Shown here: piece by piece, positions 11,496 through 62,066 of the stretch
How positions within the stretch are numbered: the first letter of the stretch is position 1
How the letters are laid out: each line of letters starts with the position of its first letter
Assembly: GCA_017541365.1 (NCBI GenBank)
Contig: JAFXZF010000100.1
Span: forward strand, 40,839 to 104,838
Direction: 5' to 3'
Length of the DNA: 64,000 bases
DNA from: Prevotella sp.
Lineage (GTDB): Bacteria; Bacteroidota; Bacteroidia; Bacteroidales; Bacteroidaceae
The notes under the pieces: model-generated
Databases searched by the model: none
Told to the model about the DNA's origin: nothing
What the model saw: the letters and a program-made list of their open reading frames with translations, nothing else
Made by a program: the position numbers and the translations under genes

Positions 11496-12686
11496 TTATA
11501 CGTTGACTATATCGAGCACATCGGCAAATACACCTGCGGCGGTGACGCCGGCACCTGCGCCGTAACCTCGTATCATCATGGGGTGGGGGGCATAGCGCTC
11601 GGTGTGGAGCATCACGATGTTGTTGCTACCCTCGAGTTTGGCAAAGGGAGTGTCAAGTCCAACCTTCTCGAGGCTTACGGAGCATTTAACAGAGTTCAAA
11701 CGCTCGCTGGTGCGAGCTGGTTCAAGAGGTTCAAGAGCTCCTTCGGAGCGGTTCAAGGGGTTCCAGTTCCCGTTCCCGTTAACGTTCCCGTTAACTTCCA
11801 GCTTCGCTATAAACCTCAGGCACTGCCCATTTTCCTCTACTTCTTTACGCAGAGCCTCAAAATAAGGGTTGAGTCGGGGGAGGTTCGCCCAGAAGTCGTC
11901 GAGTGTGCCGTCGAAGTATTCCTGTGGCACGAAGAGGTTCTTTTCTACATCCTCCTGGCTTACATCATAACCAGCCTCACGGGCGAGGATGACGAGTTTG
12001 CGTATCACGTCGATGCCTGAGAGGTCGATGCGTGGGTCGGGTTCGGAGAAGCGTTCTTCTTTTGCCCTCTTGACGGCATCGGAGAAGGTGACGTCCTTGC
12101 TTATGGTATTGAAGATGAAGTTGAGCGTGCCGCTGAGCACTGCCTCAATCTTTACTATCCTGTCGCCAGACTTTACGAGGTCGTCAATGGTATGTATCAC
12201 GGGCAGTCCGGCGCCCACGTTTGTCTCATAGTTGTATTTCACGCCGTTCTTTACGGCTGTTTCCTTCAGTTTGCGATAGGCATCAATGTCACCTGCAGCA
12301 GCTACCTTGTTGGCACATACGATAGAGATGCTGGCATCGAGAAAATCCTGATAGAGACTGGCTATCTCATGACTGGCGGTGCAGTCAACAAACACCATGT
12401 TGCCCTCCACCTCTCGGCGCATCTGTAGCACGCCATCGCGGATGGCCTCAATGCTCGATTTCGGAGCTTTGCTGAAAGTTTCGCGAAACCTGTCCATCGA
12501 GAAGTCCGTGAGGTCGAGCCCCTCCTTGTCCATAAGGATGTTGAAGATATCCACAATGCCGACGATCTGCATGTTGAGGTTGCGTGTTCTGAGCAGCCAT
12601 TCCTGCTGCTGTGCCATCTGTTGCAGGAGTGCTCCGCCAACGGTACCAGTGCCGCAAAGCACCACTTTAAGTGTCTTTTGCTTCAT
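11496..12686 (-). CDS. hom: Homoserine dehydrogenase, stand-alone, with repeat-encoded insert
   Basis: NAD(P)-dependent reduction of aspartate semialdehyde to homoserine for threonine and methionine synthesis. The N-terminal Rossmann motif is VVLCGTGTVGGALLQ. The catalytic domain has NVGAGLPVI, LSGTLNFIFN and EPDPRIDLSGIDV. The sequence resembles the C-terminal half of bifunctional ThrA (aspartokinase-homoserine dehydrogenase) more than Bacillus-type Hom, yet no kinase or ACT domain precedes it. Residues about 292-332 (NGNVNGNGNWNPLNRSEG, then ALEPLEPARTSERLNSV) are an extra segment encoded by two repeat families. The start is ATG 12686; an in-frame TTG 12 bases upstream would lie at or before the expected transcript start. 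It follows the TonB receptor gene but has its own -7 box. Confidence 0.9.
   Translation of the reverse strand: MKQKTLKVVLCGTGTVGGALLQQMAQQQEWLLRTRNLNMQIVGIVDIFNILMDKEGLDLTDFSMDRFRETFSKAPKSSIEAIRDGVLQMRREVEGNMVFVDCTASHEIASLYQDFLDASISIVCANKVAAAGDIDAYRKLKETAVKNGVKYNYETNVGAGLPVIHTIDDLVKSGDRIVKIEAVLSGTLNFIFNTISKDVTFSDAVKRAKEERFSEPDPRIDLSGIDVIRKLVILAREAGYDVSQEDVEKNLFVPQEYFDGTLDDFWANLPRLNPYFEALRKEVEENGQCLRFIAKLEVNGNVNGNGNWNPLNRSEGALEPLEPARTSERLNSVKCSVSLEKVGLDTPFAKLEGSNNIVMLHTERYAPHPMMIRGYGAGAGVTAAGVFADVLDIVNV
11693..11797. repeat. Compound repeat inside hom
   Basis: On the minus strand this is a GTTAACGGGAAC tandem, then CTTGAAC units separating palindromes such as GCTCC-gaa-GGAGC and GCTCGC-acc-AGCGAGC. 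It adds about 35 codons in frame with no stop. GGGAAC copies recur at 17061, 21159 and 35077. TTCAA copies recur at 36123, 40304 and 62016. Confidence 0.85.
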
Positions 12687-12695
12687 AATTGAGCA

Positions 12696-12703
12696 CAAAG
12701 GTA
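12696..12703 (-). promoter_or_regulatory. -7 box of hom
   Basis: TACCTTTG on the minus strand, only 9 bases before ATG 12686. No clear TTTG is seen about 20 bases further upstream. If used, the leader would be about 5 bases long. Confidence 0.5.
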
Positions 12704-12710
12704 CAAAATA

Positions 12711-12744
12711 ATTCTGAATTATGAATTATGAATTGTGAATTATT
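12711..12744. repeat. AATTATGAATTGTGAATTA tandem repeat
   Basis: Imperfect 8-9 base units fill the hom / TonB-receptor spacer. A nearly identical tract lies next to a TACCTTTG box upstream of guaB (57582-57620). Confidence 0.8.
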
Positions 12745-14810: not shown

Positions 14811-14827
14811 CCGTTATCCTTACTCCT

Positions 14828-14867
14828 TAATCTATAATCTATAATCTGTCATCTATAATCTGTCATT
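14828..14867. repeat. TAATCTATAATCTGTCATC tandem repeat
   Basis: Imperfect repeats fill the whole spacer between the TonB receptor and the plug-domain protein. Confidence 0.75.
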
Positions 14868-14868
14868 A

Positions 14869-16596
14869 TTACCTAATACTTTTCTCCACGTGCAACGGCT
14901 TGCCCTCGGGCGTGAAGCCATCGATGTGCACGGTATAACTGCCGTCGTCGCCTTTCGCCTTGCGTTCCCCCATAACCTTTGCCACGATAACCATGAGGGT
15001 TGTCTTGTCCTTTATTGTCAGATTGGAGTTCCAATATACCACAGGCCATGCTTGGTCAGCAGCAGGCTGATGGAACTTCTTATACTTCTGGTAGCCCAGT
15101 GGAAACACCATCTTCAGTGCAGCCGAGCGCGATGTGTTGCGTAGGTCGGCACCCTCCTTGAGAGTGATGCAGACAGCAGCATTGCCACGTCCAAATCCTG
15201 TCAGCATCATGGCATCTTCAGGCTTCAGCAGGTCTATGCGCTCTATTATCTCCATGGGATACGACATTGCCACCATGCTGCCTACCGATGGCATGCCGTC
15301 CATATCGTCATCATCGTCAAAACCCTCCTCTATGCCGTCAACGAAGAAGCGCAGCGGTTTGTTGCGGTAGCACAGCACCCCGTTTATCATCCTCACTCCA
15401 GGCATGCGCATCAAAGCTGACTCCAGGTCGTATATACCTCGGTTCATCAGTTCATCAGCCATCATCGTCCTCTCTGCAAAATGCTGGTAAGTCTCCGTAA
15501 TCTTTTCACGTTTCTTTCCCCTCACCTCTATCTCCTCAAGCATCTGCGTATTGGCAAGGTCGATGGTGCTCGATACTATCTTCATCTCCGATGGTACCTC
15601 GCTCTCGCGGCTGAAATAGTGGGGTAGGGCAGGCAGGTGGCTCACCCTCTCCGGCAGGCTGTCGCCGTCAAGTGTGATGTTCTCCATACGAGTGCGCTTC
15701 CCCTTCTTTGCAGAGATAAACACCACGGTGCTGTCTGGCAGGTCGAAGCCAGAGAACTCAAATCGTCCGTCGCTTCCCGTTATGCGTGCCTCCGTAATCT
15801 TCTTCGTTGGCACCACGAGGCTCACCCTTACTCCCTCCTGCGGTTTCTTGGTGCTTATGTTGCCATACACCGTGCCAGATATCGTCTGTCCCAGTTCGTA
15901 AGGCATAGTGGGTGAGTACAGCCTCTGCGACTTCTTTATATCGTCAAGGGTAAAAAGGTCCGGCTGATGCTCTAATGACCACACAATGCTTGATGTAGAG
16001 TCGGCCCTGCACAGACGGTCGGCGGTAATCGACATCGCCACGTTAGAGCCGATGGGGACAACGTCTGTTATTGGAAGTGTATCATGTATCTGCTCCCCTC
16101 TCTCCAAGAGAGGGGTAGGGGGTGAGTCTAGATTCCTCGGCAGCAATCCCCGTGATATATCCTTTGGGTTCATCACGTGCAGTCGTTTGCGGAAGAACAT
16201 CTCCTCCGTAGTCCCCAGCATGTAGTATGTATAGGCAACGAGGGTGTAGTCGCCGCTTGTCAAGTCGGGAGGCATAGCGATGTAGCCCCTCATTCCCTTG
16301 CCTCTGTCCATCAGTTTTATGCGACTGCGCAGGTTGTCCGCCGCGTCGCGCAGCTCCACATACACATATTTACTATGCGATGTCGTCACCCCTTTGCTGT
16401 TGCAGTCATATATCCACGCTCTCATCCTTGCCGTGTCGCCGGCAAGGTACAGGTCGCGGTCTGTCATCACATACACCTTCTCCTGCGGAAACATCTTACG
16501 TTGCCTCTCCAGCATGCTGGCATAGTCCTGTGCCATTGTCATGATGCACCATGTGAGACATATCGCAGTCAGTATAATATGCTGTATTCTGTTCAT
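14869..16596 (-). CDS. Secreted MG2-like / TonB-plug domain protein without a barrel
   Basis: Signal peptide to about residue 22 (ending TMAQ). Residues about 35-140 (KVYVMTDRDLYLAGDTARMR, then a beta-rich stretch with GDYTLVAYTYYML) resemble the alpha-2-macroglobulin MG2 domain. Residues about 240-310 are a carboxypeptidase-regulatory-like domain (GTVYGNISTKKPQEGVRVSL). Residues about 385-500 resemble a TonB-receptor plug (DLESALMRMPGVRMINGVL, IDLLKPEDAMMLTGFG) with an Asp run in the loop. The protein then ends, so no transmembrane barrel is present. Similar proteins occur widely in Bacteroidota with no settled role. Residues near 155 (SPPTPLLERGE) come from a repeat palindrome. It has a consensus promoter and probably heads a unit with the downstream TonB receptor. 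Confidence 0.75.
   Translation of the reverse strand: MNRIQHIILTAICLTWCIMTMAQDYASMLERQRKMFPQEKVYVMTDRDLYLAGDTARMRAWIYDCNSKGVTTSHSKYVYVELRDAADNLRSRIKLMDRGKGMRGYIAMPPDLTSGDYTLVAYTYYMLGTTEEMFFRKRLHVMNPKDISRGLLPRNLDSPPTPLLERGEQIHDTLPITDVVPIGSNVAMSITADRLCRADSTSSIVWSLEHQPDLFTLDDIKKSQRLYSPTMPYELGQTISGTVYGNISTKKPQEGVRVSLVVPTKKITEARITGSDGRFEFSGFDLPDSTVVFISAKKGKRTRMENITLDGDSLPERVSHLPALPHYFSRESEVPSEMKIVSSTIDLANTQMLEEIEVRGKKREKITETYQHFAERTMMADELMNRGIYDLESALMRMPGVRMINGVLCYRNKPLRFFVDGIEEGFDDDDDMDGMPSVGSMVAMSYPMEIIERIDLLKPEDAMMLTGFGRGNAAVCITLKEGADLRNTSRSAALKMVFPLGYQKYKKFHQPAADQAWPVVYWNSNLTIKDKTTLMVIVAKVMGERKAKGDDGSYTVHIDGFTPEGKPLHVEKSIR
16091..16128. repeat. C/G-rich palindrome inside the plug-protein gene
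   Basis: CCCCTCTC-tcca-AGAGAGGGG followed by TAGGGGGTGAGTC, translated in frame on the minus strand as DSPPTPLLERGE. The hairpin plus GGGGTGAGTC tail matches the copy in holB (reverse strand) and resembles both ribE copies. Confidence 0.8.
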
Positions 16597-16618
16597 GCTA
16601 TAGTATCTAAATTTCTTG

Positions 16619-16649
16619 CAAAGGTACTAAAAATGAGTGCAATGACAAA
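16619..16649 (-). promoter_or_regulatory. Promoter of the plug-domain protein
   Basis: On the minus strand: TTTG (16646-16649), 19 bases, TACCTTTG (16619-16626), about 22 bases before the ATG at 16596. Confidence 0.75.
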
Positions 16650-16680
16650 ATATATTTACAAAATATAATAGGGTGTTTGG

Positions 16681-16765
16681 AAAAGATATCCTTTTAGGAG
16701 CTAAAAGGTATCCTTTAAGGGGCTAAAACATATCCTTTTGGGGGGCGAAAAGATATGCTTTTCGG
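16681..16765. repeat. 22-base tandem repeat, almost four copies
   Basis: Units of AAAAGATATCCTTTTAGG-like sequence start at 16681, 16703, 16725 and 16748. Each unit is itself roughly palindromic around GATATC/GGTATCC. The tract lies in the spacer between tRNA-Gln and the plug-protein promoter. No gene is visible in it. This unit was not seen elsewhere in the window. Confidence 0.8.
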
Positions 16766-16791
16766 TCATGCTTTTGAATTGAAACAAAAAG

Positions 16792-16825: not shown

Positions 16826-16835
16826 AGCAGAAGAG

Positions 16836-16906
16836 TTGTCCTACGCGGATTCGAACCACGACAAACAGAACCAAAACCTGTTGTGCTACCATTACACCAT
16901 AGGACA
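16836..16906 (-). tRNA. tRNA-Gln (anticodon TTG)
   Basis: On the minus strand the 71 bases fold as a full cloverleaf: acceptor stem TGTCCTA / TAGGACA, D-arm GTGTAATGGTAGCAC, anticodon stem ACAGG / TCTGT with loop TTTTGGT (anticodon TTG, reading CAA), T-arm CGTGG-TTCGAAT-CCGCG, discriminator A. CCA is not encoded. A consensus promoter lies upstream and a terminator follows, so it is its own unit. Confidence 0.97.
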
Positions 16907-17060: not shown

Positions 17061-17076
17061 TAACGGGAACGGGAAC
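17061..17076. repeat. Short GGGAAC tandem
   Basis: TAACGGGAACGGGAAC just downstream of tyrS. The same word is found upstream of murF-alr's 3' end (21159) and inside hom. Confidence 0.7.
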
Positions 17077-17085
17077 AATCTCCAA

Positions 17086-18679: not shown

Positions 18680-19056
18680 GACTCGGTGACTCTTTGCAGC
18701 AGGTTGCGTACCTTGCCTGTGATGAAGCTTGAGGGGTAATGCCTACTATCGAGCCATATGAATGCCATAGTGAGGGCTTTTCCTTCGGGCAACTGCAACA
18801 ACTCCTTGTTGTTGCGGTATGCTTCGCGCAGCTGTCGCTTGATGCGGTTGCGGTCCACGGCGTGACGGAACTGTCTCTTGGGTACCGATATCATCATGGC
18901 AGTGGCGTGATCGTCGGTACTTATCATGCGATATACCATGCGCAGTGGATAGGCTGACAGGCTCCTGCTACCCTTGCCAGGCTCAAAGAGCTGATCGATG
19001 AGATAGTGGCTGCACAGCCTCTCGCTCTTTGACAATTGACAATTCGGGTGTTTCAT
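18664..19056 (-). CDS. rnpA: Ribonuclease P protein component
   Basis: Protein subunit of RNase P, which trims tRNA 5' leaders. The RNA-binding signature [12 protein letters not shown] is at residues 69-80 and the left-handed crossover region [11 protein letters not shown] precedes it. Length 130. The N-terminus ([14 protein letters not shown]) is read through an AATTGTCAATTGTC repeat, so the first six or so residues are probably repeat-derived and replace the usual short leader before LSKSERL. It overlaps yidD by 16 bases. Confidence 0.95.
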
Positions 19057-21158: not shown

Positions 21159-21216
21159 TAACGGGAACGGGAACGCTAACGTTAACTTTTTTCAATTTTC
21201 AATTTTATTTTTTCAA
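21159..21216. repeat. GGGAAC / GTTAAC repeat followed by TTTTCAATTTTCAA tract
   Basis: AACGGGAACGGGAACGCTAAC, then repeated CAATTTT units, fills the spacer between murF-alr and rpsO. The first part is the same family as the insert in hom and the tail of the PL1 lyase at 33210. Confidence 0.8.
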
Positions 21217-27538: not shown

Positions 27539-28915
27539 ATGATGGAAACAGAAAAGGAAAACGTGCAGGGTAATGCACAGAACAATGATTCTACCCGTGA
27601 GGGCGGTTATGGTCATGACAACGGTGGCTATCAGCCACGTCAGCCACGTCAGCGTGTGCGTATTAGTACGAGAGGCAGCTATGGCGAACGTCCTCAGTAT
27701 GGTGGCGGACATGCAGGTTACAACCAAGGAACAGGAGAAGGAGGCTTTATGCCCGAAGGCTTTGGCGCAGGGCTAAGCAATGGTTATCAGCCTCGCGGCG
27801 GATACCAGCCTCGCGGTGGCTATGGCCAGCAGCGTGGTGGATATAATAATAACCGTGGTGGCTACGGTCAGCAGCGCGGTGGTTATCAGCAGCGTCCTGC
27901 CTATCGTCAGTATGACAACAATGGCGAGCAGGGTAACGAGGAGTATGGTCAGCAGCGTGGCGGATATCAGTCTCGCGGCGGTTATGGTCAGCGCGGCGGT
28001 TACCAGCAACGTGGAGGCTACGGCCAGCAGCGTGGTGGATATAACAACAACCGTGGTGGCTATGGTCAGCAGCGCGGCGGGTACAATAATAATCGTGGTG
28101 GCTATGGCCAGCGTCAGCGCACCCCAGGATATGATCCTAATGCCAAGTACTCTATGAAGAAGCGTATAGAGTATAAGGAGAACAATATAGACCCAACAGC
28201 ACCAGTACGTCTTAATAAGTTCCTTGCCAACGCAGGCGTTTGTTCACGCCGTGAGGCAGATGACTTTATCGAGGCAGGTGTAGTAACAGTGAATGGACAG
28301 GTGGTTACCGAACTCGGTACAAAGATACTGCGCACCGATGAGGTGAAGTTCCATGATCAGCCCGTTACACTGGAGAAGAAAGTCTATGTGCTTCTCAACA
28401 AGCCAAAGGATTATGTTACCACCTCTGACGATCCACAACAGCGTAAGACTGTAATGGACCTCGTGCAGGGTGCTTGTCCAGAGCGTATATACCCCGTAGG
28501 ACGCCTTGACCGCAACACTACAGGTGTGCTGCTTCTTACCAACGATGGTGACTTGGCTTCAAAACTCACTCATCCAAAGTTCTTGAAGAAGAAGGTGTAT
28601 CATGTGTATCTCGACAAGAATGTCACACTGCATGACTTGCAGCAGATAGCTGAGGGCATAGAGTTGGAGGATGGTCCGATAAAGGCTGACGCTATCGACT
28701 ATGCTCATCAGACAGACAAGAAACAGGTGGGCATAGAGATACACTCAGGCAAGAACCGCATAGTACGTCGTATCTTTGAGAGTCTGGGATACCATGTCAC
28801 CAAACTCGATCGCGTGCAGTTTGCCGGCCTCACCAAGAAGAACCTCCGACGCGGAGATTGGCGCTTCCTCACAGAGAAAGAGGTTGACATGCTGCGCATG
28901 GGAGCGTTTGAGTAG
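27539..28915 (+). CDS. rRNA pseudouridine synthase with long RGG/GY-rich N-terminal tail
   Basis: Residues about 1-215 are low complexity, built from [18 protein letters not shown] and GGYQPRGG units. The rest is a complete RsuA/RluB-type enzyme: S4 domain ([20 protein letters not shown]), catalytic [20 protein letters not shown] with the active-site Asp, and a C-terminal [14 protein letters not shown], about 240 residues in all. It isomerises a uridine in 16S or 23S rRNA; which site cannot be told. The tail resembles eukaryotic RGG-box RNA-binding regions. ATG 27539 or 27542 may be used. No consensus promoter was recognised in the 106-base spacer. Confidence 0.92.
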
Positions 28916-28935
28916 TTCACAGTTTACAATTCATA

Positions 28936-29014
28936 GTTTTCGTAGCGAAGCGTTTCGTAGGTGCGTAGCACCGTTTCGTAGTCACGGAGTGACGTTTCGT
29001 ACGAGCAAAGCGAG
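28936..29014. repeat. Tandem mini-hairpin array with GTTTCGTA spacers (asnS leader)
   Basis: Four small palindromes with 3-base loops: GC-gaa-GC (28945), GGTGC-gta-GCACC (28960), GTCAC-gga-GTGAC (28981) and an imperfect CGAGCAAAGCGAG (29002). They are separated by the identical 8-mer GTTTCGTA at 28952, 28973 and 28994. The palindrome arms differ but the spacers do not. The last unit ends a few bases before the asnS ATG. Confidence 0.9.
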
Positions 29015-29021
29015 TATATTT

Positions 29022-30458
29022 ATGAAACGTACAAAGGTAATAGACGCCTTGGCCATGACGGTCTTTGGCGAAGAAATAGATGTAAGGGGATGGGTGAGAA
29101 CTCACCGTTCCAGTAAGGCAGTAGATTTTATTGCCCTGAATGATGGATCTACCATCAAAAACATACAGATAGTAGTTGACCCTGAGAAGTTTGAAGCCGA
29201 GATGCTCAAGCAGATAACCACTGGTGCTTGTATTCACGTAGTAGGCAGACTGGTGGAAAGTCAGGGAGCAGGTCAAACTTGTGAGATCCAGGCTGACGAG
29301 ATTGAGATTTACGGTCTTTGTGGCAATGACTATCCGATGCAGAAGAAGGGACAGTCATTCGAGTACATGCGTCAGCATGCCCACATGCGTTTGCGTACCA
29401 ACACCTTTGGTGCCATTATGCGCATTCGTCACAACATGGCGATGGCTATCCATACCTACTTCCATGAGCATGGATACTTCTATTTCCATACTCCACTTAT
29501 TACAGCCAGCGACTGCGAGGGAGCAGGCAACATGTTCCAGGTTACTACCAAAAACCTTTATGACTTGAAGAAAGACAAAGACGGCAAGATAGACTATTCC
29601 GATGACTTCTTCGGCGAGCAGACCTCACTTACCGTTTCAGGACAGCTCGAGGGTGAACTTGGTGCAACAGCCTTAGGTGCTATCTACACTTTTGGTCCTA
29701 CCTTCCGTGCCGAGAACTCCAACACGCCTCGACACCTTGCCGAGTTTTGGATGATAGAGCCAGAGATAGCCTTCATGGATCAGGAAGAGTTGATGGACCT
29801 CGAGGAGGACTTCATAAAGTACTGCGTGCGATGGGCGCTCACCAACTGCAAGGACGACCTTGAGTTCCTTAATAAGATGATTGACAAGGGACTCATAGAG
29901 CGTCTTGAGGGCGTCTTGAAGGAAACATTCGTACGTCTGCCTTATACCGAGGGCATCAAGATACTGCAGGAGGCAAAGAAGAATGGAAAGAAGTTTGAGT
30001 TCCCATGCGAGTGGGGCGACGACCTTGCTTCTGAGCATGAGCGTTACCTCGTTGAGGAACACTTCAAGAAGCCTGTCATTATGACCGACTATCCAACAGC
30101 CATCAAGTCATTCTACATGAAGCAGAATGAGGCACAGGGCGAGGGTAGTGTAGGTTATAAGGGCTGCGTAGCTCCTGGTCCTACCATGCAGGGCACAGAT
30201 GTATTGTTCCCGCAGATAGGTGAGATTATGGGTGGCTCAGTACGTGAGGAGAGCTATGACAAACTAATGGGTGAGATAGAGCGCCGTCAGATGGATACCA
30301 CCCACCTGTGGTGGTATCTCGATACTCGTAAGTACGGCTCTTGTCCTCATGCAGGCTTTGGCTTAGGCTTCGAGCGTCTCATACTCTTTGTTACAGGAAT
30401 GCAGAACATTCGTGACGTTATTCCTTTCCCACGCACTCCGAACAGTGCAGAATTCTAA
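29022..30458 (+). CDS. asnS: Asparaginyl-tRNA synthetase
   Basis: Class IIb synthetase charging tRNA-Asn. An OB-fold anticodon domain ([21 protein letters not shown]) comes first. Motif 2 is [20 protein letters not shown] and motif 3 is [15 protein letters not shown]. Starts at ATG 29022 ([10 protein letters not shown]), giving 478 residues as expected. The longer open frame upstream consists of the end of the pseudouridine synthase gene and the hairpin array. CGTTTC in the array can pair with GAAACG at codons 2-3, placing the start codon in a hairpin. An overlapping terminator/promoter cassette follows. Confidence 0.97.
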
Positions 30459-33157: not shown

Positions 33158-33171
33158 TTTGTGTAACTTTG
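33141..33171 (+). promoter_or_regulatory. Promoter of the PL1 lyase at 33210 (cassette copy 2)
   Basis: TTTG (33141-33144), 19 bases, TAACTTTG (33164-33171). The -33 box lies inside the terminator hairpin. Confidence 0.8.
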
Positions 33172-33209
33172 CACTCAGTTGCATTAACTATAAAAGAAAA
33201 AATAAACGT

Positions 33210-41061: not shown

Positions 41062-41105
41062 TTTTAATTGTTATCTATTATCTATTATGTATTATCTATC
41101 ATCTA
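41062..41105. repeat. TTATCTATTATCTATTATG tandem repeat
   Basis: Imperfect 9-base units (ATTATCTAT) fill the porW-trxA spacer. Confidence 0.8.
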
Positions 41106-46032: not shown

Positions 46033-47235
46033 ATGATAACAGAGGATGACATATTACTGATGCAGGATGCCATGCTTCTTGCCCAAAGGGGTGAGGGGCT
46101 GGTAAACCCCAATCCGCTCGTTGGTGCGCTGATAGTAAAGGATGATGAGGTGGTGGCACGAGGCTGGCACACTCGCTATGGCGACCTGCATGCTGAGCGT
46201 GAGGCGTTCAGGGATGCTGAGGAGCGTAAGGTGGATTGCAAGGGCACCACGATGTATGTCACTCTTGAGCCTTGTTGTCATCAAGGACATCAGCCACCAT
46301 GCACAGATGCCATCATAGAGCATGGTGTGAAACGCGTAGTGGTAGGAGTGCTTGACCCTAACCCACTTGTCGCAGGTAAGGGAGTGGAAATACTCCGTAA
46401 CGCTGGTATAGAGGTGGAGGTGATGGACAGTTCACAGTTGGCAGTTAACAATTCACAGTTAAATGATGGCTGTGCTCAGTTGGTTCAGCAACTGAAGGTA
46501 CAAAACCGCGTGTTTCGCAAATATATAACAACCAACATGCCGTGGGTGACAGCCAAGTGGGCGATGACCCTTGACGGAAAGATTGCTACTACGACTGGTG
46601 ACAGTAAGTGGATAACATCAGAGAAAGCGAGGGAACGTGTGCATTTGATGCGCAAAAACAATATGGCGATACTTTGTGGCATTGGTACGGTGATGGCAGA
46701 TGATCCTATGCTCAATGTGCGTCTCACAGAAGAGCGCATGAAACAGTTGGGTATCAAGGAGCACGAAGTGCGACAGCCCATAAGGATAGTGGCAGACCGC
46801 CAGGCGCGCCTGCCGTTGGAAAGCCAACTGGTAAGTACCGCACACGAGATACCCCTGATAGTGGTGTACGGCAATTCTGCCGATGAGGAGAAGTTGCAGC
46901 AGTTGCGTGATGCTGGTGTGACACTGTGGAACTGCAACACGCTCACCGAACTCATCCAGCGTGCAGGTGCTGAGAAGATCGACTCCATCATGCTCGAAAG
47001 TGGCGGTACCCTAAGTGAGGCACTACTCAAGGAGGGACTCATCGATGAGGTGGTGGCATTTATCGCACCTAAGATAGTGGGTGGCAAGGGTGCCAAAACC
47101 CCTGTAGAGGGTGATGGCGTAAGCATGATGGGCGAAGCCATAGAGCTGACTAATCAGATAGTCGAGACCATAGGCTCCGATGTGATGATTTCAGGATTGG
47201 TAAAGAAACTCAGCACAAACAGCTCGTTTTCGTAG
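46033..47235 (+). CDS. ribD: Riboflavin biosynthesis deaminase/reductase RibD
   Basis: Second and third steps of riboflavin synthesis. The deaminase half has NPNPLVGALIV, zinc ligands HAERE and PCCHQGHQPPCTD. The reductase half starts near residue 165 (WVTAKWAMTLDGKIATTTGD) and has GIGTVMADDPMLNVR. Start ATG 46033 fits the promoter; the frame upstream of it is not part of the protein. Between the domains, residues about 132-144 (SSQLAVNNSQLND) come from a CACAGTT repeat. The last residues and the stop codon come from a TTTTCGTAG repeat unit. Length 400. Confidence 0.94.
   Translation: MITEDDILLMQDAMLLAQRGEGLVNPNPLVGALIVKDDEVVARGWHTRYGDLHAEREAFRDAEERKVDCKGTTMYVTLEPCCHQGHQPPCTDAIIEHGVKRVVVGVLDPNPLVAGKGVEILRNAGIEVEVMDSSQLAVNNSQLNDGCAQLVQQLKVQNRVFRKYITTNMPWVTAKWAMTLDGKIATTTGDSKWITSEKARERVHLMRKNNMAILCGIGTVMADDPMLNVRLTEERMKQLGIKEHEVRQPIRIVADRQARLPLESQLVSTAHEIPLIVVYGNSADEEKLQQLRDAGVTLWNCNTLTELIQRAGAEKIDSIMLESGGTLSEALLKEGLIDEVVAFIAPKIVGGKGAKTPVEGDGVSMMGEAIELTNQIVETIGSDVMISGLVKKLSTNSSFS
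46427..46462. repeat. TTCACAGTTGGCAGTTAACA repeat inside ribD
   Basis: Tandem CAGTTnnCAGTTAA units in the linker between the deaminase and reductase domains, read as NSQL-like units. Confidence 0.7.
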
Positions 47236-47280
47236 CAACATGGTTGCGTTTCGTTTTCGTAGCCCGTAGGGCGTTTCGTA
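47225..47280. repeat. Tandem mini-hairpin array with GTTTCGTA spacers (ribD-ribE)
   Basis: Two palindromes with 3-base loops, GCAAC-atg-GTTGC (47235-47247) and GCCC-gta-GGGC (47262-47272), joined by TTTCGTTTTCGTA and ending in GTTTCGTA (47273). It supplies the ribD stop codon and ends 10 bases before ribE. Confidence 0.9.
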
Positions 47281-47290
47281 CAAAGTTTAT

Positions 47291-48025
47291 ATGTTCACTG
47301 GAATAGTAGAGGAAATAGGCACCATTAAGAGCATTCGCCGAGGGGTAAAGAGTATATCCCTCGAGATTGGTGCGTCAACCATTCTGGAGGGCACAAACGT
47401 GGGCGACTCCATCTGCACCAATGGTGTGTGCCTCACGGTAACAAGTCTCCCTTCCCTTCAAGGGAGGGCGGGAGGTGAATCTTCTTTCACCGCTGACGTG
47501 ATGCCCCAAACTATGCGTATGACAGCATTGGGTGGTCTCAAACCAGGTGACAAGGTAAACCTTGAGAGAGCTCTTATGTTGCAGTCACGTCTTGGTGGTC
47601 ACATCGTGTCAGGCCATATCGACGGAGTAGGCAGGGTGATAAAGCGTGAACAGGACGATACAGCCCTGTGGCTATGGATAGAGGCACCAGCCAGCATCAT
47701 GCGCTACATCATAGATAAAGGTAGCATAACGATTCAGGGCGTGAGTCTGACAGTGGCCAAAGCTCCCTCTCCACAAGAGAAAGCGGCAGGAAAGTCTTCC
47801 TTCGCCGTGTCGCTCATACCTCACACTCAGAATGCCACCACGCTCCACACTGCCAAGGTGGGCGACAAGGTAAACCTCGAAAACGATGTGATAGCAAAGT
47901 ACGTAGAGAACTTCGTACGATACGGAGCCTCTGGCTCCTACGATACGGAGCCTCTGGCTCCTACGATACGCCCTTCGGGCTACGATAACTTAGACCTCTA
48001 TCGTGACTTCATGCTACGAGCATAA
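47291..48025 (+). CDS. ribE: Riboflavin synthase alpha chain with three repeat-encoded inserts
   Basis: Dismutates two lumazines into riboflavin. The two lumazine-binding domains are clear: MFTGIVEEIGTI, SRLGGHIVSGHIDGVG, then NVIAKYVE-like DVIAKYVENF. Normal length is about 200; this one has 244. The excess lies in three places: residues 52-64 (in TSLPSLQGRAGGESSF), residues 157-169 (in AKAPSPQEKAAGKSSF), and residues 211-231 near the C-terminus (GASGSYDTEPLAPTIRPSGY). All are repeat-encoded. The first two occupy the same beta-turn in each duplicated domain. The catalytic N-terminus and the ligand residues look intact. It lies between ribD and ribBA in an operon. Confidence 0.93.
   Translation: MFTGIVEEIGTIKSIRRGVKSISLEIGASTILEGTNVGDSICTNGVCLTVTSLPSLQGRAGGESSFTADVMPQTMRMTALGGLKPGDKVNLERALMLQSRLGGHIVSGHIDGVGRVIKREQDDTALWLWIEAPASIMRYIIDKGSITIQGVSLTVAKAPSPQEKAAGKSSFAVSLIPHTQNATTLHTAKVGDKVNLENDVIAKYVENFVRYGASGSYDTEPLAPTIRPSGYDNLDLYRDFMLRA
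47444..47486. repeat. C/G-rich palindrome in ribE, first domain
   Basis: CTCCC-TTCCCTTCAAGGGA-GGGCGGGAGG, followed by TGAATC. It lies in the turn before SSFTADV. Confidence 0.8.
47759..47800. repeat. C/G-rich palindrome in ribE, second domain (degenerate)
   Basis: CTCCCTCTC-caca-AGAGAAAGCGGCAGG, followed by AAAGTC. It lies in the turn before SSFAVSL, the position equivalent to the first copy. Confidence 0.75.
47916..47989. repeat. Tandem mini-hairpin array with TACGATAC spacers, in frame in ribE
   Basis: GGAGCC-tct-GGCTCC twice (47924 and 47947) and GCCC-ttc-GGGC (47970), separated by identical TACGATAC 8-mers at 47916, 47939 and 47962. The reverse complement of the spacer, GTATCGTA, differs by one base from the GTTTCGTA spacer of the other two arrays. 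Confidence 0.92.
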
Positions 48026-50415: not shown

Positions 50416-52884
50416 TTACTGTTTAGGTACCAATCTGACGGCTGAGTTCAGTCCGCTTGGCATCGGTGCCCAGTCGGCGTAGGATGTTTTCAGGTAGTTA
50501 ATATCCACCATGTTTATCTCCTTCATCTTGCGCCACGGCACCTGCCTGCGGTCAAGGTCACTGATGCGGTTGGCAGGGAGGTTGGTCACCTCTATGCGGA
50601 GTTTGTTCTTGCCTTTCTTTAGGGCATCGCCACAGTCGAGGACGAATGGCACTGCCCACGCACAGCCTATGAACTTGTCGTTGATATATACACGGGCTGA
50701 CTCGCGCACGTCGCCGAGGTCTATCTGCCACTGCTGCTTAGCCTGTTTGGCTGAGAGGCGGATGGTGGTGGTATATACTCCCGTGCCCATCGTGACTGCT
50801 GCCTCGGGGCTGAGGCTTTCCCATGTCTGTGGCTTTTGGAGCACAAACGTTTCCTCGACCTTTGGCGCTTCCTCGACAAAGGTCAGTGTCCAGGGGCTTC
50901 CAATTAACAAATTGTCATGACAAATTGACGAATTGTTATATTTAGCTATAGCAGGGCTTTGGCTTTGCTCATCAAAGGTCTGGAGAATAATGGACTCACC
51001 ACTACGCAGACTGATTTTCATGCTATGGTCATCGAGGTGTTCTACTGGCGTTATGGCACCCGTCATAGGGTTGAACCATAGTGCTTCTGCGCTCTTGCCT
51101 GCAGCAAGGTCGAAACCTCCGCAGATATCATTTGGCGTGAGGTTGGCAATGAAATAGTGGTATCCCTTATCGTTCTGACGACGTATCACACGCAGGCCAT
51201 AGTCTGTGCGCAAGGGTTCAGCTTTGGCGTATTTCGCCATCGCCGTAGCGTCCTCACCATATATTATATAAGGTGTAACTTCGTCAAGCAGTGCTTTCAG
51301 TTTGTCATCAATGGTGGTGCCTGTAGGGATGATGAGGGCACTATAGCGTGTGCCTCCCTCTGTCACCAGCATACCATTCTCTACCTTCACTTTCGCCAGT
51401 TGGCGGTCGCTGATATAGTCGCAGTCGTAACCCAGACTGTCGATGGTAAGAATGCTGTGGATAAACTCAGGGGCTTTCTCCTCCATGCTATGAATGTCAA
51501 ACTGCATGAGGAGGTCATCGCCAAGCTGTGGGTCTCTGTTGAGGGTGGGCATTCTGCGCTTACGCCACATGTCACGTACTGGCAGATAGACGAGGAAGTC
51601 GTTGTCGGGCTTACCCATCTGAAGGAAACACTGGCAACGCTCGATATACTGCATCATATAAGGGGCATCGCGCCAGATGGAGTTGGTAGGGCTCATATCG
51701 ATGCTGGCATAGAATTTCCACCCTGGCCAAGGGTCGTCCTTGGGAGTATAGCATGAGCCGTGGAAGAACATGTGGTTGACACCACAGGTGAACATAAGGT
51801 CGAGGTCGGGCTTCATCTGCGACAGCGAGGTGCGGAAATGCTCAGTGAGCCAAGTAAACGTCTCGCTTGAGGTAAGTGGCTTGCCCATCACATGGGCTGC
51901 TGACGAAGCATACTTCAGCATCGACACGTCACTGAAATTCTTCTTTGTCATGCCAGGGTCGGTACGCAAGCCTTTTATACCAAACTCTGACAGTCCGAAG
52001 CCCTCTATCTCCGGAATATCCACTGCTGCATAAAGGTCAAGGAGGTTGGCTGGTGAGCCATGAGCCTGATTGCGTACCAGTACGCCATGACGATGCGCCC
52101 ACTCCACCCACTGCTGCGTGAAGTTTTCATAAAGCAAGTCACTAAGCGTTTCACGGTAGTCGCACAACACCTTGTTGCCATCATCTACTGTGCCTAATAA
52201 TTCTGGCAGGCGTTCTTGCAAGTCATAGCCTCGACGTTTCCGAAACTCGTCAAACAACGTAGGAGTCCAGTTGGCATGATATACCTCGTAAGAGTCATTG
52301 AAGAAAGTATGCGGATAGGGCACACCAGACGTACTGAATGCCTGCTCAAACCTGTCAAGGTAATGACGCACCGCATCTCTGTCGAAATGGTCTATCACCC
52401 ATCCCTCACCACCTGGTGCGGCACGTTTTACCTGTTGACGTGTATTGCCCAGTTTTATCGTGTAGATGTGTTTTCCTCCAACGATGCTGTCATGAAAAAT
52501 GGCTCTGCAGGCTGCCTCGCTTAGTGGCACATGAGGCCCCCCAAACGGCCATCCCGTACCACAGTTCATATCCACCTCTATATCCAGTTCCTTTGCCATG
52601 TCCTGCACGTCTTTCAAAGCTGACATCCACTGAGGTGAGAGAAATGACAACTCATTCTTCTCGTTGCCCTGCACTCCATAGAGGGGTGTTATCTCAACAG
52701 TTCCTATGCCCGTACGAGCATATTCGGAGAGGTTCCAGCGTAGGTTATCCCTGTCCACCGCTGAGCCCAGCCACCACCATCGTGTGCCAGCCTTAGTCTC
52801 CTGACGGGGAGTAGGCCATGACTGAGCGGATACCGAATTGACAAAATTGAAGATTATGATTGCTATTGCAAGGACTTTTCTCAT
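50416..52884 (-). CDS. GH106 alpha-L-rhamnosidase
   Basis: Releases terminal L-rhamnose from rhamnogalacturonan-type pectin, probably in the periplasm. Signal peptide ending SVSAQ. The GH106 opening is unmistakable: TRWWWLGSAVDRDNLRWNLS, GIGTVEITPLYGVQG, MNCGTGWPFGGPHV, FFNDSYEVYHANWTP. The C-terminal 200 residues are a beta-sandwich (ARVYINDKFIGCAWAVPF). Length 822 from ATG 52884. Residues near 640-655 (YNNSSICHDNLLIG) are encoded by an AATTTGTCATGACAA repeat. It is followed by the SDR remnant and preceded by GH105 on the same strand. Confidence 0.92.
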   Translation of the reverse strand: MRKVLAIAIIIFNFVNSVSAQSWPTPRQETKAGTRWWWLGSAVDRDNLRWNLSEYARTGIGTVEITPLYGVQGNEKNELSFLSPQWMSALKDVQDMAKELDIEVDMNCGTGWPFGGPHVPLSEAACRAIFHDSIVGGKHIYTIKLGNTRQQVKRAAPGGEGWVIDHFDRDAVRHYLDRFEQAFSTSGVPYPHTFFNDSYEVYHANWTPTLFDEFRKRRGYDLQERLPELLGTVDDGNKVLCDYRETLSDLLYENFTQQWVEWAHRHGVLVRNQAHGSPANLLDLYAAVDIPEIEGFGLSEFGIKGLRTDPGMTKKNFSDVSMLKYASSAAHVMGKPLTSSETFTWLTEHFRTSLSQMKPDLDLMFTCGVNHMFFHGSCYTPKDDPWPGWKFYASIDMSPTNSIWRDAPYMMQYIERCQCFLQMGKPDNDFLVYLPVRDMWRKRRMPTLNRDPQLGDDLLMQFDIHSMEEKAPEFIHSILTIDSLGYDCDYISDRQLAKVKVENGMLVTEGGTRYSALIIPTGTTIDDKLKALLDEVTPYIIYGEDATAMAKYAKAEPLRTDYGLRVIRRQNDKGYHYFIANLTPNDICGGFDLAAGKSAEALWFNPMTGAITPVEHLDDHSMKISLRSGESIILQTFDEQSQSPAIAKYNNSSICHDNLLIGSPWTLTFVEEAPKVEETFVLQKPQTWESLSPEAAVTMGTGVYTTTIRLSAKQAKQQWQIDLGDVRESARVYINDKFIGCAWAVPFVLDCGDALKKGKNKLRIEVTNLPANRISDLDRRQVPWRKMKEINMVDINYLKTSYADWAPMPSGLNSAVRLVPKQ
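50901..50938. repeat. AATTGTCATGACAAATT palindromic repeat inside the GH106 gene
   Basis: TTGTCATGACAA palindrome flanked by further AATTnGT units, read in frame between the catalytic part and the C-terminal beta-sandwich. Confidence 0.7.
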
Positions 52885-56020: not shown

Positions 56021-56048
56021 ACTTAGCATCTGCGTAGGGATGCTAAGT
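56021..56048. terminator. Hairpin between rhaM and mlaF
   Basis: ACTTAGCATC / GATGCTAAGT 10-bp stem with an 8-base loop. It overlaps the mlaF stop codon. No strong T-run; a weak bidirectional terminator. Confidence 0.6.
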
Positions 56049-56798
56049 AACCGCAGACTTGACTTTTTTGAATAGTTCGGAAGCGAAGACGAGGTCGTTG
56101 AGGTCTTCGTTGGTGGATGTCATGACGTCTGCCGAATTGCCCTCCCATCCCTTCTGGCCCTTGCAGATGAAGATGATGTTCTCGCCGATGCCGAGGACGG
56201 AGTTCATGTCGTGGGTGTTGATGATGGTGGTGATGCCAAACTCATGCGTGATGCCTGAGAGAAGTTCGTCGATGACGAGCGAGGTCTTGGGGTCGAGACC
56301 TGAATTGGGTTCGTCGCAGAAGAGGTATTTGGGATTCATCACTATGGCGCGGGCTATGGCTACACGCTTCTGCATGCCTCCTGATATCTCGCCAGGATAC
56401 TTGGCACCGGCATCGCTGAGGTTGACACGGTCGAGGCACTCCTGTGCGCGTGCCTTGCGTTGGCGCAGCGTCATGCTGGAGAACATATCGAGGGGAAACA
56501 TCACATTCTCGAGTACGGAGAGGGAGTCGAAGAGTGCCGCGGACTGGAATATCATGCCCATCTCGCGTCGCATGGCGACCTTCTCGTGTTTTGTCATCTT
56601 GACAAAATCCCTGCCATCGTATAATATCTCACCGCTGGTGGGGGTGAAGAGTCCTACGAGATTTTTCATCAGTACCGTCTTGCCTGAGCCAGACTGCCCG
56701 ATGATGAGGTTTGTCTTGCCATCTTCAAAGGTGGCATTGATGTCACTGAGGACGGTTCTGTCGTCGAATGTCTTGTATAGGTGATTAACTTGGATCAT
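56043..56798 (-). CDS. MlaF-like ABC transporter ATPase
   Basis: Energises phospholipid transport between outer and inner membrane (Mla/Mce system). Walker A GQSGSGKT, signature ISGGMQKRVA, Walker B YLFCDEPNSGLD, and switch His in NTHDM. The FQSAALFDSLSVLENVMFPL Q-loop region is typical for the MlaF/MKL branch. Length 251. ATG overlaps the mlaE stop by four bases. No mlaD/MCE gene is adjacent. Confidence 0.9.
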   Translation of the reverse strand: MIQVNHLYKTFDDRTVLSDINATFEDGKTNLIIGQSGSGKTVLMKNLVGLFTPTSGEILYDGRDFVKMTKHEKVAMRREMGMIFQSAALFDSLSVLENVMFPLDMFSSMTLRQRKARAQECLDRVNLSDAGAKYPGEISGGMQKRVAIARAIVMNPKYLFCDEPNSGLDPKTSLVIDELLSGITHEFGITTIINTHDMNSVLGIGENIIFICKGQKGWEGNSADVMTSTNEDLNDLVFASELFKKVKSAVT

Positions 56799-57544
56799 GA
56801 CAGTAACTGTGTGAGAAAAACGTCGGCAAAGAGTATGAGCACGGAACTGCTGACTACTGCTGAGGTGCTTGCCTTGCCTACTTCAACCGAACCGCCCTCT
56901 ACGGTGTATCCGCAGTATGATGAAACGGATGCTATGATGTAGGCAAATACGATGCTCTTGATGATGGACATCCACACAAACCACGAATTAAAAGAATGTT
57001 GCAGACCGAGTGTGAGGTCGTCGGGAGCGAGGATGTGGCCTATGTAGGCTGTGGCATAGGCTCCCGTTATGCCCATTACATCGGCAAAGATGACGAGGCA
57101 CGGCATGAGGGTGATAAGTCCAAGAATCTTGGGCATGATGAGATAGTTGGCAGAGTTAACTCCCATGATGTCAAGAGCGTCTATCTGCTGGGTGACGCGC
57201 ATGGTACCCAACTCTGAGGCGATATTGCTGCCTACCTTGCCAGCAAGGATAAGACACATGATGGATGATGAGAACTCAAGTAGCATAATCTCACGGGTGG
57301 TATATCCGCTGACCCATCGTGGCATCCAGGGTGACTGTATGTTGAGCTTCATCTGGATACAGATAACGGCACCGATAAAGAAGGAGATGAGCAGCACTAT
57401 GCCGATGGAGTCAACACCCAGTTGCTGCATCTCCTTGACATATTGCTTGAAGAATAGCCGCCACCTATCGGGTACGGCGATGCTACGTCCCATGAGAATG
57501 AGATACTTGCCAAGTATGTCGAGATAGTTGAATGGAAATATCAT
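56795..57544 (-). CDS. MlaE-like ABC transporter permease
   Basis: Inner-membrane permease partner of the ATPase above. About five to six membrane segments (GIVLLISFFIGAVICIQ, EFSSSIMCLILAGKVGSNIA, LGLITLMPCLVIFADVMGI, and others) and the family core SELGTMRVTQQIDALDIMGV. Start at ATG 57544 (MIFPFNYLDILGKY), 249 residues; a longer open frame would cover the -7 box. It is divergent from guaB. Confidence 0.9.
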   Translation of the reverse strand: MIFPFNYLDILGKYLILMGRSIAVPDRWRLFFKQYVKEMQQLGVDSIGIVLLISFFIGAVICIQMKLNIQSPWMPRWVSGYTTREIMLLEFSSSIMCLILAGKVGSNIASELGTMRVTQQIDALDIMGVNSANYLIMPKILGLITLMPCLVIFADVMGITGAYATAYIGHILAPDDLTLGLQHSFNSWFVWMSIIKSIVFAYIIASVSSYCGYTVEGGSVEVGKASTSAVVSSSVLILFADVFLTQLLS

Positions 57545-57552
57545 AGTGAGTG

Positions 57553-57560
57553 CAAAATTA
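57553..57560 (-). promoter_or_regulatory. -7 box of mlaE-mlaF
   Basis: TAATTTTG on the minus strand only 8 bases before ATG 57544, so the transcript would have almost no leader. No -33 TTTG. Confidence 0.4.
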
Positions 57561-57581
57561 TAAAAAAAAAATGAAAAACGC

Positions 57582-59140
<1,559 letters not shown>

Positions 59141-59176
59141 TACTAAAGTGTATAGTATTATAAAGTATAAAGTATA
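59141..59176. repeat. TATAAAGTATAAAGTATAA repeat
   Basis: Fills the guaB-PpiC spacer. Same type as after purB (27431). Confidence 0.75.
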
Positions 59177-60613: not shown

Positions 60614-61995
60614 AGAAGATACTGAACATAATTCTGTGTGCTGTTGTAGCTTTGGCTGCCCACGCTCAAGAAGCGGACAGTACAGCTGCTGTGACAGTTG
60701 CCAAGCCCAACTATATCGATGAAATAGTATGGGTGGTAGGTGATGAGGCGATACTGCGTTCGGATATTGAGATGTCACGTATGCAGGCAGAGCAGGAGGG
60801 CATTACCTGGAACGGCGACCCCGACTGTCGCATACCAGAACAACTGGCAGTGCAGAAACTGTTTCTCGAACAGGCTGCGATAGATAGCCTCGAGGTGACG
60901 GAAAGTGAAATAATGCAAGGCGTGGACCAACAGATCAACGCATGGATACAGATGGTGGGTTCCAAAGAGAAACTGGAGGAATACCGCAAACAGAGTGTGG
61001 CGCAGATGCGCAGTGACCTGCACGATGAGTTTAAAAACCGTGAACTAATACAGCGCATGCGCCGTAAGTTGGTGGAGGATGTGAAGGTGACACCTGCCGA
61101 TGTGCGCGATTATTATCGTGATATGCCACAGGATAGTTTGCCGTGGGTGCCTACCACCGTGGAGGTGCAGATTATCACCATGCAGCCACGTATCCCCATT
61201 GATGAGGTAAATCGTGTGAAGGATAAGCTGCGTGACTTCACAGAGAGAGTGCAGTCTGGCAGAACGAGTTTCTCAACGTTGGCTCGTCTGTATTCCGAAG
61301 ATACAGGCAGCGCTGCCCAGGGCGGAGAGTTGGGATATACTGGCAGGGGAATGCTCGACCCGAGTTTTGCGGCGGTAGCCTTCAATCTCAGCGATCCAAA
61401 GAAGATCTCCAAGATTGTGGAGTCGGAGTACGGCTTCCATATCATACAGCTCATAGATAAACGAGGCGACAAGATAAACTGTCGCCACATACTGATGAAG
61501 CCTAAGGTGTCACAGAGTGATATAGACTCTACCATGGTACATATGAGAGTGCTCACCGAGGATCTCAACAATAAGAAATTCCAGTTTGAGGATGTCGTGT
61601 CACTGCTTTCTGACGATAAGGATACGAAGAACAACCGTGGCTTGATGTCAAACAACTCTGAGAATGGCCGTACGTCAAAGTTTGAGATGAAAGATCTGCC
61701 TACTGAGGTGGCACGCAGAGTGGAGAACCTTATTGTAGGCGAGGTGTCGCAACCATTCACGATGGTCAATGCACGTGGCAAGACGGTATGCGCCATAGTG
61801 AAACTGAAAAATAGGACGGAGGCACATCGTGCTAATATGCAGGAGGACTTCCAGATGCTCAGCGACAAGGTGCTTAATAAGCGACGTGAGGATAAGGTAC
61901 GTGAGTGGGTAAAGAATAAAATAAAATCGACCTACGTCAAGATGGATGAACGCTACCAAAACTGTGACTTCGAATACGAAGGTTGGTTGAGGTAG
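60610..61995 (+). CDS. SurA-like periplasmic chaperone/isomerase
   Basis: Signal peptide MKKILNIILCAVVALAAHAQ (GTG start). The SurA N-terminal chaperone domain (DEIVWVVGDEAILRSDIEMS) spans residues about 35-165. Two parvulin domains follow: the first, residues about 175-275, is canonical (ARLYSEDTGSAAQGGELGYT, ESEYGFHIIQLI), the second, about 285-385, is degenerate. Length 461. It shares the operon with a second PpiC protein and an OstA-like protein, so the unit is probably devoted to outer-membrane biogenesis. Confidence 0.88.
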   Translation: MKKILNIILCAVVALAAHAQEADSTAAVTVAKPNYIDEIVWVVGDEAILRSDIEMSRMQAEQEGITWNGDPDCRIPEQLAVQKLFLEQAAIDSLEVTESEIMQGVDQQINAWIQMVGSKEKLEEYRKQSVAQMRSDLHDEFKNRELIQRMRRKLVEDVKVTPADVRDYYRDMPQDSLPWVPTTVEVQIITMQPRIPIDEVNRVKDKLRDFTERVQSGRTSFSTLARLYSEDTGSAAQGGELGYTGRGMLDPSFAAVAFNLSDPKKISKIVESEYGFHIIQLIDKRGDKINCRHILMKPKVSQSDIDSTMVHMRVLTEDLNNKKFQFEDVVSLLSDDKDTKNNRGLMSNNSENGRTSKFEMKDLPTEVARRVENLIVGEVSQPFTMVNARGKTVCAIVKLKNRTEAHRANMQEDFQMLSDKVLNKRREDKVREWVKNKIKSTYVKMDERYQNCDFEYEGWLR

Positions 61996-62066
61996 AGTTG
62001 ATAGTTGGCAGTTGATAGTTCAAAAGTTCAAGGGTTTAAAGGTTCAAAGGTTCAAAAGTTTAAAGG
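61996..62066. repeat. GTTGATAGTT and TTCAAAGGTTCAAAAG repeats
   Basis: Two repeat families back to back between surA and the OstA-like gene. The frame is open across them (translating as KFKGLKVQRFKSLK), which mimics the in-frame copies in holB and hom, but the likely start lies downstream. Confidence 0.85.

Follow-up and report, generated by a model that had tools for sequence, protein, structure and literature searches.

Repeats in Spacers and in Conserved Genes

The window analyzed here is a 64,000-nucleotide stretch of a Prevotella sp. genome (GCA_017541365.1, contig JAFXZF010000100.1), and our subject is a set of short repeats that lie both in its spacers and, in frame, in its conserved genes. 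NCBIfam matches back the identities of hom, rnpA, hemD, holB, porX, ribD, ribE, and GH106; by Pfam, gene 33159–35192 is a pectate lyase, and gene 14869–16596 has weak MG2 and CarboxypepD_reg matches, below the cut-offs. We label four module types: H for AGTT heptads, T for TTCAA hairpins, C for TCGTAG hairpins, and G for GTTNNC hexamers. Motifs listed by a first-pass annotation of this DNA are present where it placed them, to within a few bases, and its central claim, that repeats found in spacers also stand in frame in conserved genes, is borne out against relatives at the sites confirmed below.

Relatives were reached through hom: G136 (88% identical hom), G011 (82%), and G183 (80%), with a looser set at 67%–69%. 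Matches on contig C15 of G183 are colinear with the window from the gene preceding hom up to 49786. Among the matches listed, every hom homologue with a stated organism is Prevotella, and the best ribE matches include a named Prevotella locus. Inserts or replacements relative to these relatives are confirmed at hom, in gene 14869–16596, at two sites in holB, in ribD, in two loops and at the C-terminus of ribE, and in the linker of GH106 (Table 1). Orthologues do not carry the same residues at these sites, except that the ribE inserts are common to the window and G136, its nearest relative.

Turnover at One Turn of the hom Product

At the hom site, G011 has no insert, and G136 and G183 each have a different one. 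The G011 turn reads KLENGKCSVSLEK, and turns in more distant species are similarly short. In the AlphaFold model, the window's insert (residues 305–333; predicted local distance difference test score, pLDDT, <50) is predicted to lie at the turn between strands 292–303 and 336–347. Miniature inverted-repeat transposable elements (MITEs) are marked by terminal inverted repeats and a target site duplication; at hom, GTTAA stands at both ends of the insert in the window and in G183, but GTTAAC itself is a component of the array. A search of 5.8 billion proteins, in which 7,999 candidates were scored, gave 1,231 hits. Among the matches listed (the best 120), the turn, which lies between LRFIAKLE and KCSVSLEK, is NG, GA, or similar in many species, that is, two residues, whereas close kin have 9–60 residues there, drawn from several repeat types. 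The fillings in the window's group include VNGNVNGNGN (hexamers), VNVPVPV (hexamers, other strand), PLNRSEGALEPLEPARTSERLN (T), NASLVQDELRSGSKVQDASLVQ (T, other strand), SYRSTAGAYRSAAYRSEPSSR (C), PLLRACSPEHQLERKN (another element), and APLQLPPAGGES (palindrome); the DNA under the loop peptides was seen for the window, G136, and G183, and elsewhere the module is deduced from the peptide.

Loop types were assigned by text rules of our own. When mapped on a 59-row tree from which the loop was left out (P0001–P0060, less P0053 and P0056, which were removed by hand), loop type changes at least 17 times, and the well-supported branches alone force 7, 5, 3, 3, 2, and 1 changes for six loop types. 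Among P0001–P0052, all 52 of which were parsed, 189 pairs have cores at least 97.5% identical and different loops, and in 102 of the 189 the loops are less than half similar; these pairs are not independent, and cores so alike may belong to strains or sister species. In P0001 and P0002, the nearest to the window's hom, the differences are mainly of whole units. The picture is less the invasion named in the first-pass annotation than a rapid exchange of content at a small number of permissive sites, one and the same turn being refilled with different repeats in close kin. Hexamer and TTCAA strings also occur in hom loops in both orientations (VNGN..PLNRSEG versus NASLVQ..VNVPVPV), and P0013 has both; given both orientations, inversion or recombination of the loop insert is possible.

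Many of the compared sequences are metagenomic, and repeats are prone to misjoining, which raises the question of an artifact of metagenome-bin assembly. Several hom loop alleles are nonetheless found on many contigs (30 for P0047, 16 for P0012, and 8, 5, or 4 for others) or on long ones (146 kb for P0006; 21–29 kb for P0034, P0037, and P0039; 21–244 kb overall), and this speaks against assembly error. The inserts also lie within intact open frames with matching flanks, and the same modules occur in the window and in four separate relatives. We regard an artifact as extremely unlikely.

Hairpin Anatomy and Module Order

A C array consists of the linker CGTWTCGTA and a hairpin starting with G, repeated. 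All 104 segments between linkers in our first sample close as hairpins, 61 of them with stems of at least 4 bp (shuffled control: mean 0.9, maximum 4), and 26 of 31 segments close in DNA fetched later. The stems vary: there are 52 distinct hairpins among the 104, and most inner positions (in two length classes) show three or four pair types. On the TCGTAG strand, 20 of the 37 triloops among distinct hairpins are GNA and one is TNC; hairpins with stems of at least 4 bp give 13 GNA and one TNC among 42, and the second sample gives seven GNA and no TNC among 14 triloops. The commonest hairpin is GCGAAGC (16/104). DNA mini-hairpins with GNA or GNNA loops and at least two GC pairs are described as unusually stable, and GCGAAGC is given a melting temperature of 78 °C (PMC4686876). 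In T arrays the triloops are of the complementary kind, TNC in eight of ten distinct cases in G174, a distant member of the genus, and in three of seven in the window's group, with no GNA in either; the GNA strand of T arrays is therefore the TTGAAC strand.

The modules also keep an order. T, C, and G modules that neighbor one another within 40 nt never lie on opposite strands, and they follow T>C>G along their strand in 12 of the 13 cases; these cases come from 10 places, three of them the hom site in three genomes. A repeat of the count in 751 kb more from G183 and G011 gave T>C>G in nine of nine cases, at eight places. In 13 of 16 cases, AGTT-type heptads come ahead of a T, C, or G module on its own strand. 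The first-pass annotation had counted five or more families. The families are real, and the fixed order and orientation indicate that they are in good part not separate, since H, T, C, and G join as modules of one directed composite.

These regularities bear on the simplest alternative, in which nothing is mobile and ordinary replication slippage and recombination expand chance simple repeats that core genes tolerate. Unit-number changes between near kin fit such a process, as does the lack of a candidate enzyme, and heptanucleotide arrays are reported as common in other bacteria, where polymerase slippage has been suggested as their source (PMC4679880). Yet the linker words, the hairpins, and the order of modules are repeated at many unlinked loci in several species, and loop fillings switch family between near-identical hom cores, for which local slippage alone would be insufficient. 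We consider this alternative unlikely.

Other Sites in Genes and Spacers

Table 1. Repeat sites of the window and their state in relatives
Repeat	Host or setting	Positions	Strand	Relatives and remarks
C/G-rich palindrome (SPYTGGFRG)	giant protein, N-terminus; candidate insert	173–201		resembles SPYTGGMRG of P0125 ribE loop 1
TTCAA hairpin array, then GTTCCC/GTTAAC hexamers	hom	11688–11796	+ (gene on -)	~33 extra residues
C/G-rich palindrome	gene 14869–16596	16093–16126		replaced by other fillings
GGGAAC hexamers	spacer	17062–17076
GGGAAC/GTTAAC hexamers	spacer	21160–21185
TCGTAG hairpin array	before gene 28776–30458	28937–29006	+	orthologous array in G183: linkers kept, stems different
GTTAAC-type hexamers	near end of pectate lyase gene 33159–35192; candidate insert	35079–35098	+	relatives' matches stop earlier
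TTCAA array	holB, site 1	36123–36156	+	GGGAAC/GTTAAC hexamers at same site in G183
Palindrome CCCTCTC..GAGAGGG	holB, site 2	36280–36318		9-residue insertion missing from G183
TTCAA array	directly past porX stop codon	40305–40328	+	more TTCAA units in G183; different heptad array in G136
CAGTT heptads	ribD linker	46428–46460	+	other sequence or deletion in G136, G183, G011
TCGTAG hairpin array	ribD end	47224–47281	+	same in G136, different in G183, absent in G011
C/G-rich palindrome (PSLQGRAGGE)	ribE loop 1, predicted between strands 46–52 and 65–70	47447–47478		absent in G183, G011
C/G-rich palindrome	ribE loop 2, predicted between strands 151–157 and 170–175	47763–47794		variants in G183, G004; absent in G011
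TCGTAG hairpin array	ribE C-terminus	47911–47990	-	shorter in G183, none in G011; model pLDDT ~45
AATTGT-type repeats	GH106 interdomain linker	50900–50935		unrelated tandem repeats in G136, one residue shorter
Heptads, then TTCAA array	probably 5' spacer of gene 62012–63730	61996–62066	+	fewer TTCAA-type units in G136

The other in-frame sites repeat the pattern seen at hom. At the site in gene 14869–16596, G136 has TTCAA and TCGTAG hairpins with hexamers, G183 a different filling, and G011 a shorter one. The stop codon of ribD is the TAG of its terminal TCGTAG array. Loops 1 and 2 of ribE occupy matching positions in the two halves of the protein, and other ribE homologues carry other repeat-like peptides in their loops, SPYTGGMRG filling loop 1 of P0125. 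In three further ribE homologues (P0190, P0208, and P0220), tandem repeats (SLSGSASSL...) take up as many as ~65 residues of loop 1 and end in KTKTKTK; they form another repeat family in another lineage. In-frame C arrays are mostly antisense (9 versus 2), as would be expected given that TCGTAG brings a TAG stop into one sense frame. Placement at loops, linkers, or termini, as proposed at first, agrees with the structure models for hom and ribE, in which the inserts are predicted to fall in turns or in a low-confidence tail.

The first-pass list of host genes stands in part: hom, holB, ribD, ribE, and GH106 are hosts, and three other sites do not stand as coding inserts. At 19030 rnpA shows no insert against G183, with no extra length beyond one residue. 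The repeat at 40304 lies past the porX stop codon. The site at 62016 is in frame solely from a TTG start and has ATG codons downstream, so that the repeat is probably upstream of the true start. The array at 28936 is likewise spacer unless the TTG start at 28776 is used.

In spacers, the array content at one and the same spacer differs between relatives. Of 50 C arrays, 10 spacer copies point at a nearby start codon in sense, four in antisense, and three in both, a small bias. This bias is what one would expect if the repeats were functional RNA or translation elements, 5' hairpins regulating genes, with the coding copies as by-products, and TAACTGA heptads are described just upstream of starts in other bacteria (PMC4679880). 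The orientation bias is, however, weak or absent for T (5 versus 2) and G (4 versus 5), same-spacer content is not conserved between relatives, coding copies occur in both orientations, and the loops are of the DNA-stable GNA type, not RNA tetraloops. A regulatory origin therefore appears very unlikely.

Two observations concern the window more broadly. Between 45937 and 62000, its proteins match contig C162 of G136 in blocks of 98%–100% identity (ribE, 48068, 49325, 56043–59140, and 60610) with intervening blocks of 76%–93% (ribD, GH106, 52950, 54271, 55612, and 59177), and this alternation suggests recombination between close lineages. An Rfam search matched a tRNA gene at 16836–16906 on the minus strand and nothing else.

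Excess over Chance and Distribution in the Genus

The units exceed chance in genome searches, contrary to what one would see if they merely reflected composition. The pattern CGTAGN{6,28}CGTWTCGTAG occurs 107 times in G183, 98 in G136, 57 in G242, and 15 in G011, and 0–4 times in the other 295 of 299 genus genomes, with a reversed-pattern control of 0–5 across the 299. C arrays are thus abundant in four of the 299 sampled genomes, a lineage burst. TTCAA pairs are distributed otherwise: they are most numerous in G174 (67), G202 (58), G183 (54), G085 (51), G050 (36), G206 (26, own control 11), G011 (25), G136 (16), G111 (13), and G006 (11), with at most 10 in each remaining genome. At least one pair is found in 147 of 299 genomes, patchily over the genus, and the top control is 16, in G031. 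In six loci of G174 (L201–L206) we observed a TTCAA hairpin burst of that genome's own, whose stems differ but whose loop type is shared, and, by eye, at least one TTCAA hairpin copy in apparent coding sequence (L201, near 1400).

Period-7 tandem arrays, counted with Tandem Repeats Finder (TRF) at a score of at least 34 and one period per overlapping cluster, number 156 per Mb in the window, 149–229 in G183, G136, and G011, and 41 in G242. The comparison values are 82 per Mb in six Bacteroidales/Bacteroidota-type loci and 14.7 in 74 other loci, none of which is titled Bacteroidota (two are titled only "bacterium"). Relative to those 74 loci, the density is at least ten times higher in the window and the three relatives and about threefold higher in G242. 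The window has 17 period-7 rows with many different units (for example, 12710–12743, 41071–41105, and 57585–57618). Heptad arrays often have 4.4–5.0 copies, ~33 nt (33 of 57 in G183), to which the TRF score limit may contribute.

Insertions of at least five residues between relatives were compared with controls from the same genes. Eleven of 51 share an exact word of at least 14 nt with a distant spacer, versus 48 of 1,020 controls (Mann–Whitney U test, p = 0.009, with equal medians of 11), and stems of at least 7 bp occur in 7 of 51, versus 13 of 1,020. An 11-mer repeat test of the inserts was weak (0.098 versus 0.074). A cruder measure, the share of arrays falling in coding frames under a gene mask (42/104, 29/39, and 20/23), overstates coding copies and was not used.

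Candidate Movers

The first-pass annotation saw no mobile enzyme. Two enzyme families were searched in relatives, the Y1 transposase of REP-associated tyrosine transposases (RAYTs; REP, repetitive extragenic palindromic) and the reverse transcriptase RVT_1, and neither tracks the arrays. One can nevertheless imagine REP-like elements mobilized by a Y1 transposase of the RAYT/TnpA-REP kind, with the GTAG foot and the shape of the hairpin as its recognition signals. Each hairpin in a C array has GTA(G) at its 5' foot, as in GTAG REPs, and outside the window's group Y1 genes are present in a number of T-rich genomes (G174, G202, G085, G206, and G111). The stems here vary within one genome, unlike those of a REP class. 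Matches to PF01797 come from 155 of the 299 genus genomes (149 above the cut-off), with none in G183, G136, and G011 and a weak match in G242 (E 4e-4), bins that may be incomplete, and there is none in T-rich G050 either. Of 17 loci surrounding Y1 genes, not one has a TTCAA pair or a C linker, two of these loci being from T-rich genomes (L198 of G202 and L125 of G111). Accounts of RAYTs do include Bacteroidetes subclasses whose REPs are double-foot or atypical, and they note that REPs can be in frame in genes (PMC3733652, PMC6006769). After searches in nine relatives, the 299 genus genomes, and the 17 Y1 loci, we rejected RAYT/Y1 as the general mover, and the REP-like alternative as a whole strikes us as decidedly improbable.

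RVT_1 was found in 8 of 20 genomes tested; it is absent from G183, G136, G011, and G242, and was rejected as mover of the C arrays. It is present in all four T-rich genomes outside the group (G174, G202, G085, and G050) versus 4 of 12 others, numbers too small to judge.

Four viral scans over 2.9 million contigs matched two, two, two, and three contigs. By eye, hairpin arrays are present only in L218; the near-identical L213 and L214 share one hexamer string, and the rest look unrelated. In L218 (IMGVR_UViG_3300021431_000139), positions 1070–1350 are a spacer with TCGTAG hairpins, hexamers, and heptads, adjoined by genes with phage matches, one of them a tail protein. Phage DNA in these hosts can therefore carry the repeats, but does so rarely. 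The hom insert had no match in plasmids.

Proposed Copying of a Modular Repeat through Single-Stranded DNA

On balance, we lean toward a polar, modular, non-autonomous mosaic repeat of a Prevotella lineage that is copied through single-stranded DNA. Its supported features are constant linkers, variable paired stems, a fixed order, restriction to a lineage, turnover between close relatives, and a location in spacers or in protein turns, linkers, and tails. The composite runs H, T, C, and then G on one strand, single copies holding one or more modules, and separate C/G-rich palindromes occupy the same sites. Copying would pass through single-stranded DNA, where stable mini-hairpins may cause the polymerase to slip or to switch template; units would thereby be gained or lost, and one arm of a stem could be rewritten from the other. 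Whole module strings may be copied elsewhere by microhomology or with a trans-acting enzyme as yet unseen. Selection would purge the copies that break genes, and survivors would be those in spacers or in permissive protein loops, where they come in multiples of three and bring no stops; such loops could be refilled repeatedly. The most likely route, in our view, would be template switching on single strands where stable hairpins form, whether or not a trans-acting enzyme takes part.

Several points weigh against this account. We saw no copying event and no junction with a clear target or duplication. In the second sample, five of the 31 C segments fail to close completely. Many T segments have no hairpin, a stem of at least 4 bp being present in 32 of 79 in the window's group and in 19 of 27 in G174. 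When whole arrays are folded as DNA, their advantage over shuffled sequence is only moderate (z from -1.2 to -4.3). One neighbor pair breaks the module order (G>C), as do two T>H cases and one reversed H case, and since some order cases share a place or are orthologous, their effective number is smaller than the count. On the hom tree, 19 of 53 inner branches are weak; the neighbor counts and protein pairs alike include orthologous or related loci, and metagenome proteins may hold assembly errors at repeats.

A bolder formulation, which we offer tentatively and rate as possible rather than probable, is that these repeats are selfish DNA inheriting its shape and not its stem sequence: with constant linkers, exceptionally stable mini-hairpins whose stems are rewritten but stay paired, and a fixed order, they would spread via single-stranded hairpins without a known transposase and rewrite the loops of core enzymes between strains.

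Relation to Known Systems

The Rickettsia palindromic element (RPE), which the first-pass annotation named as the closest parallel, is a fair comparison. RPEs are described as short palindromic repeats that occupy spacers and also stand in frame within many conserved genes unrelated to one another (PMC10969869, PMC3733652), and the same is true here. RPE families, as those accounts present them, are ~150 bp long, each with a conserved encoded peptide, whereas the Prevotella modules are ~6–30 nt with varying stems. Several families also stand here in a fixed order, the content of one site changes between close kin, and the hom loop peptides are wholly different between kin.

By the usual definition, REPs of one class share a stem sequence. 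The C arrays differ in this, given their many distinct hairpins, although they carry the GT[AG]G tetranucleotide at the hairpin foot. REP families go together with genes for Y1 transposases; here stems are free, Y1 does not track the arrays, and no Y1 gene flanked by repeats was found in the bins tested, which may be incomplete. The likenesses to REP/RAYT systems (GTAG- and CGTC-tagged) as described in PMC3733652 are GTAG-foot hairpins, TAG stops given to neighboring genes, occasional in-frame copies, and the presence of different REPs at nearly one position in recB. With no conserved peptide, no conserved stems, and no linked Y1 gene, the Prevotella repeats are, as tested, members of neither the RPEs nor the REPs.

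TAACTGA heptamers and other long simple sequence repeats resemble the H modules, being short tandem heptads in spacers near starts, with some Bacteroidetes among the carriers (PMC4679880). The TAACTGA system, as described there, has one fixed heptamer, and here there are many heptad sequences, some joined to hairpin modules. The period-7 excess in the window, G183, G136, and G011, weaker in G242, agrees with that class for the heptads only. Neisserial mosaic elements (NIMEs) are mosaic arrays of constant and variable parts, with units larger than the Prevotella modules; we know of no NIMEs in frame in core enzymes. In the open-access literature we found no description of hairpin, heptad, or in-frame repeats of this kind in Prevotella, Bacteroidetes, or their kin.

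Implications

In-frame repeats in essential proteins are described for set families in Rickettsia and in REP-rich genomes (PMC10969869, PMC3733652). In the Prevotella group a two-residue hom turn is refilled with several repeat types in close kin, so that the origin of protein insertions from selfish DNA can be traced almost stepwise. Taken together, the free stems, the strand-specific GNA bias, and the fixed order suggest a copying process in which single-stranded hairpins are recognized, with no known enzyme. For gene annotation, this means that some protein loops and tails in Prevotella are repeat DNA, not conserved sequence.

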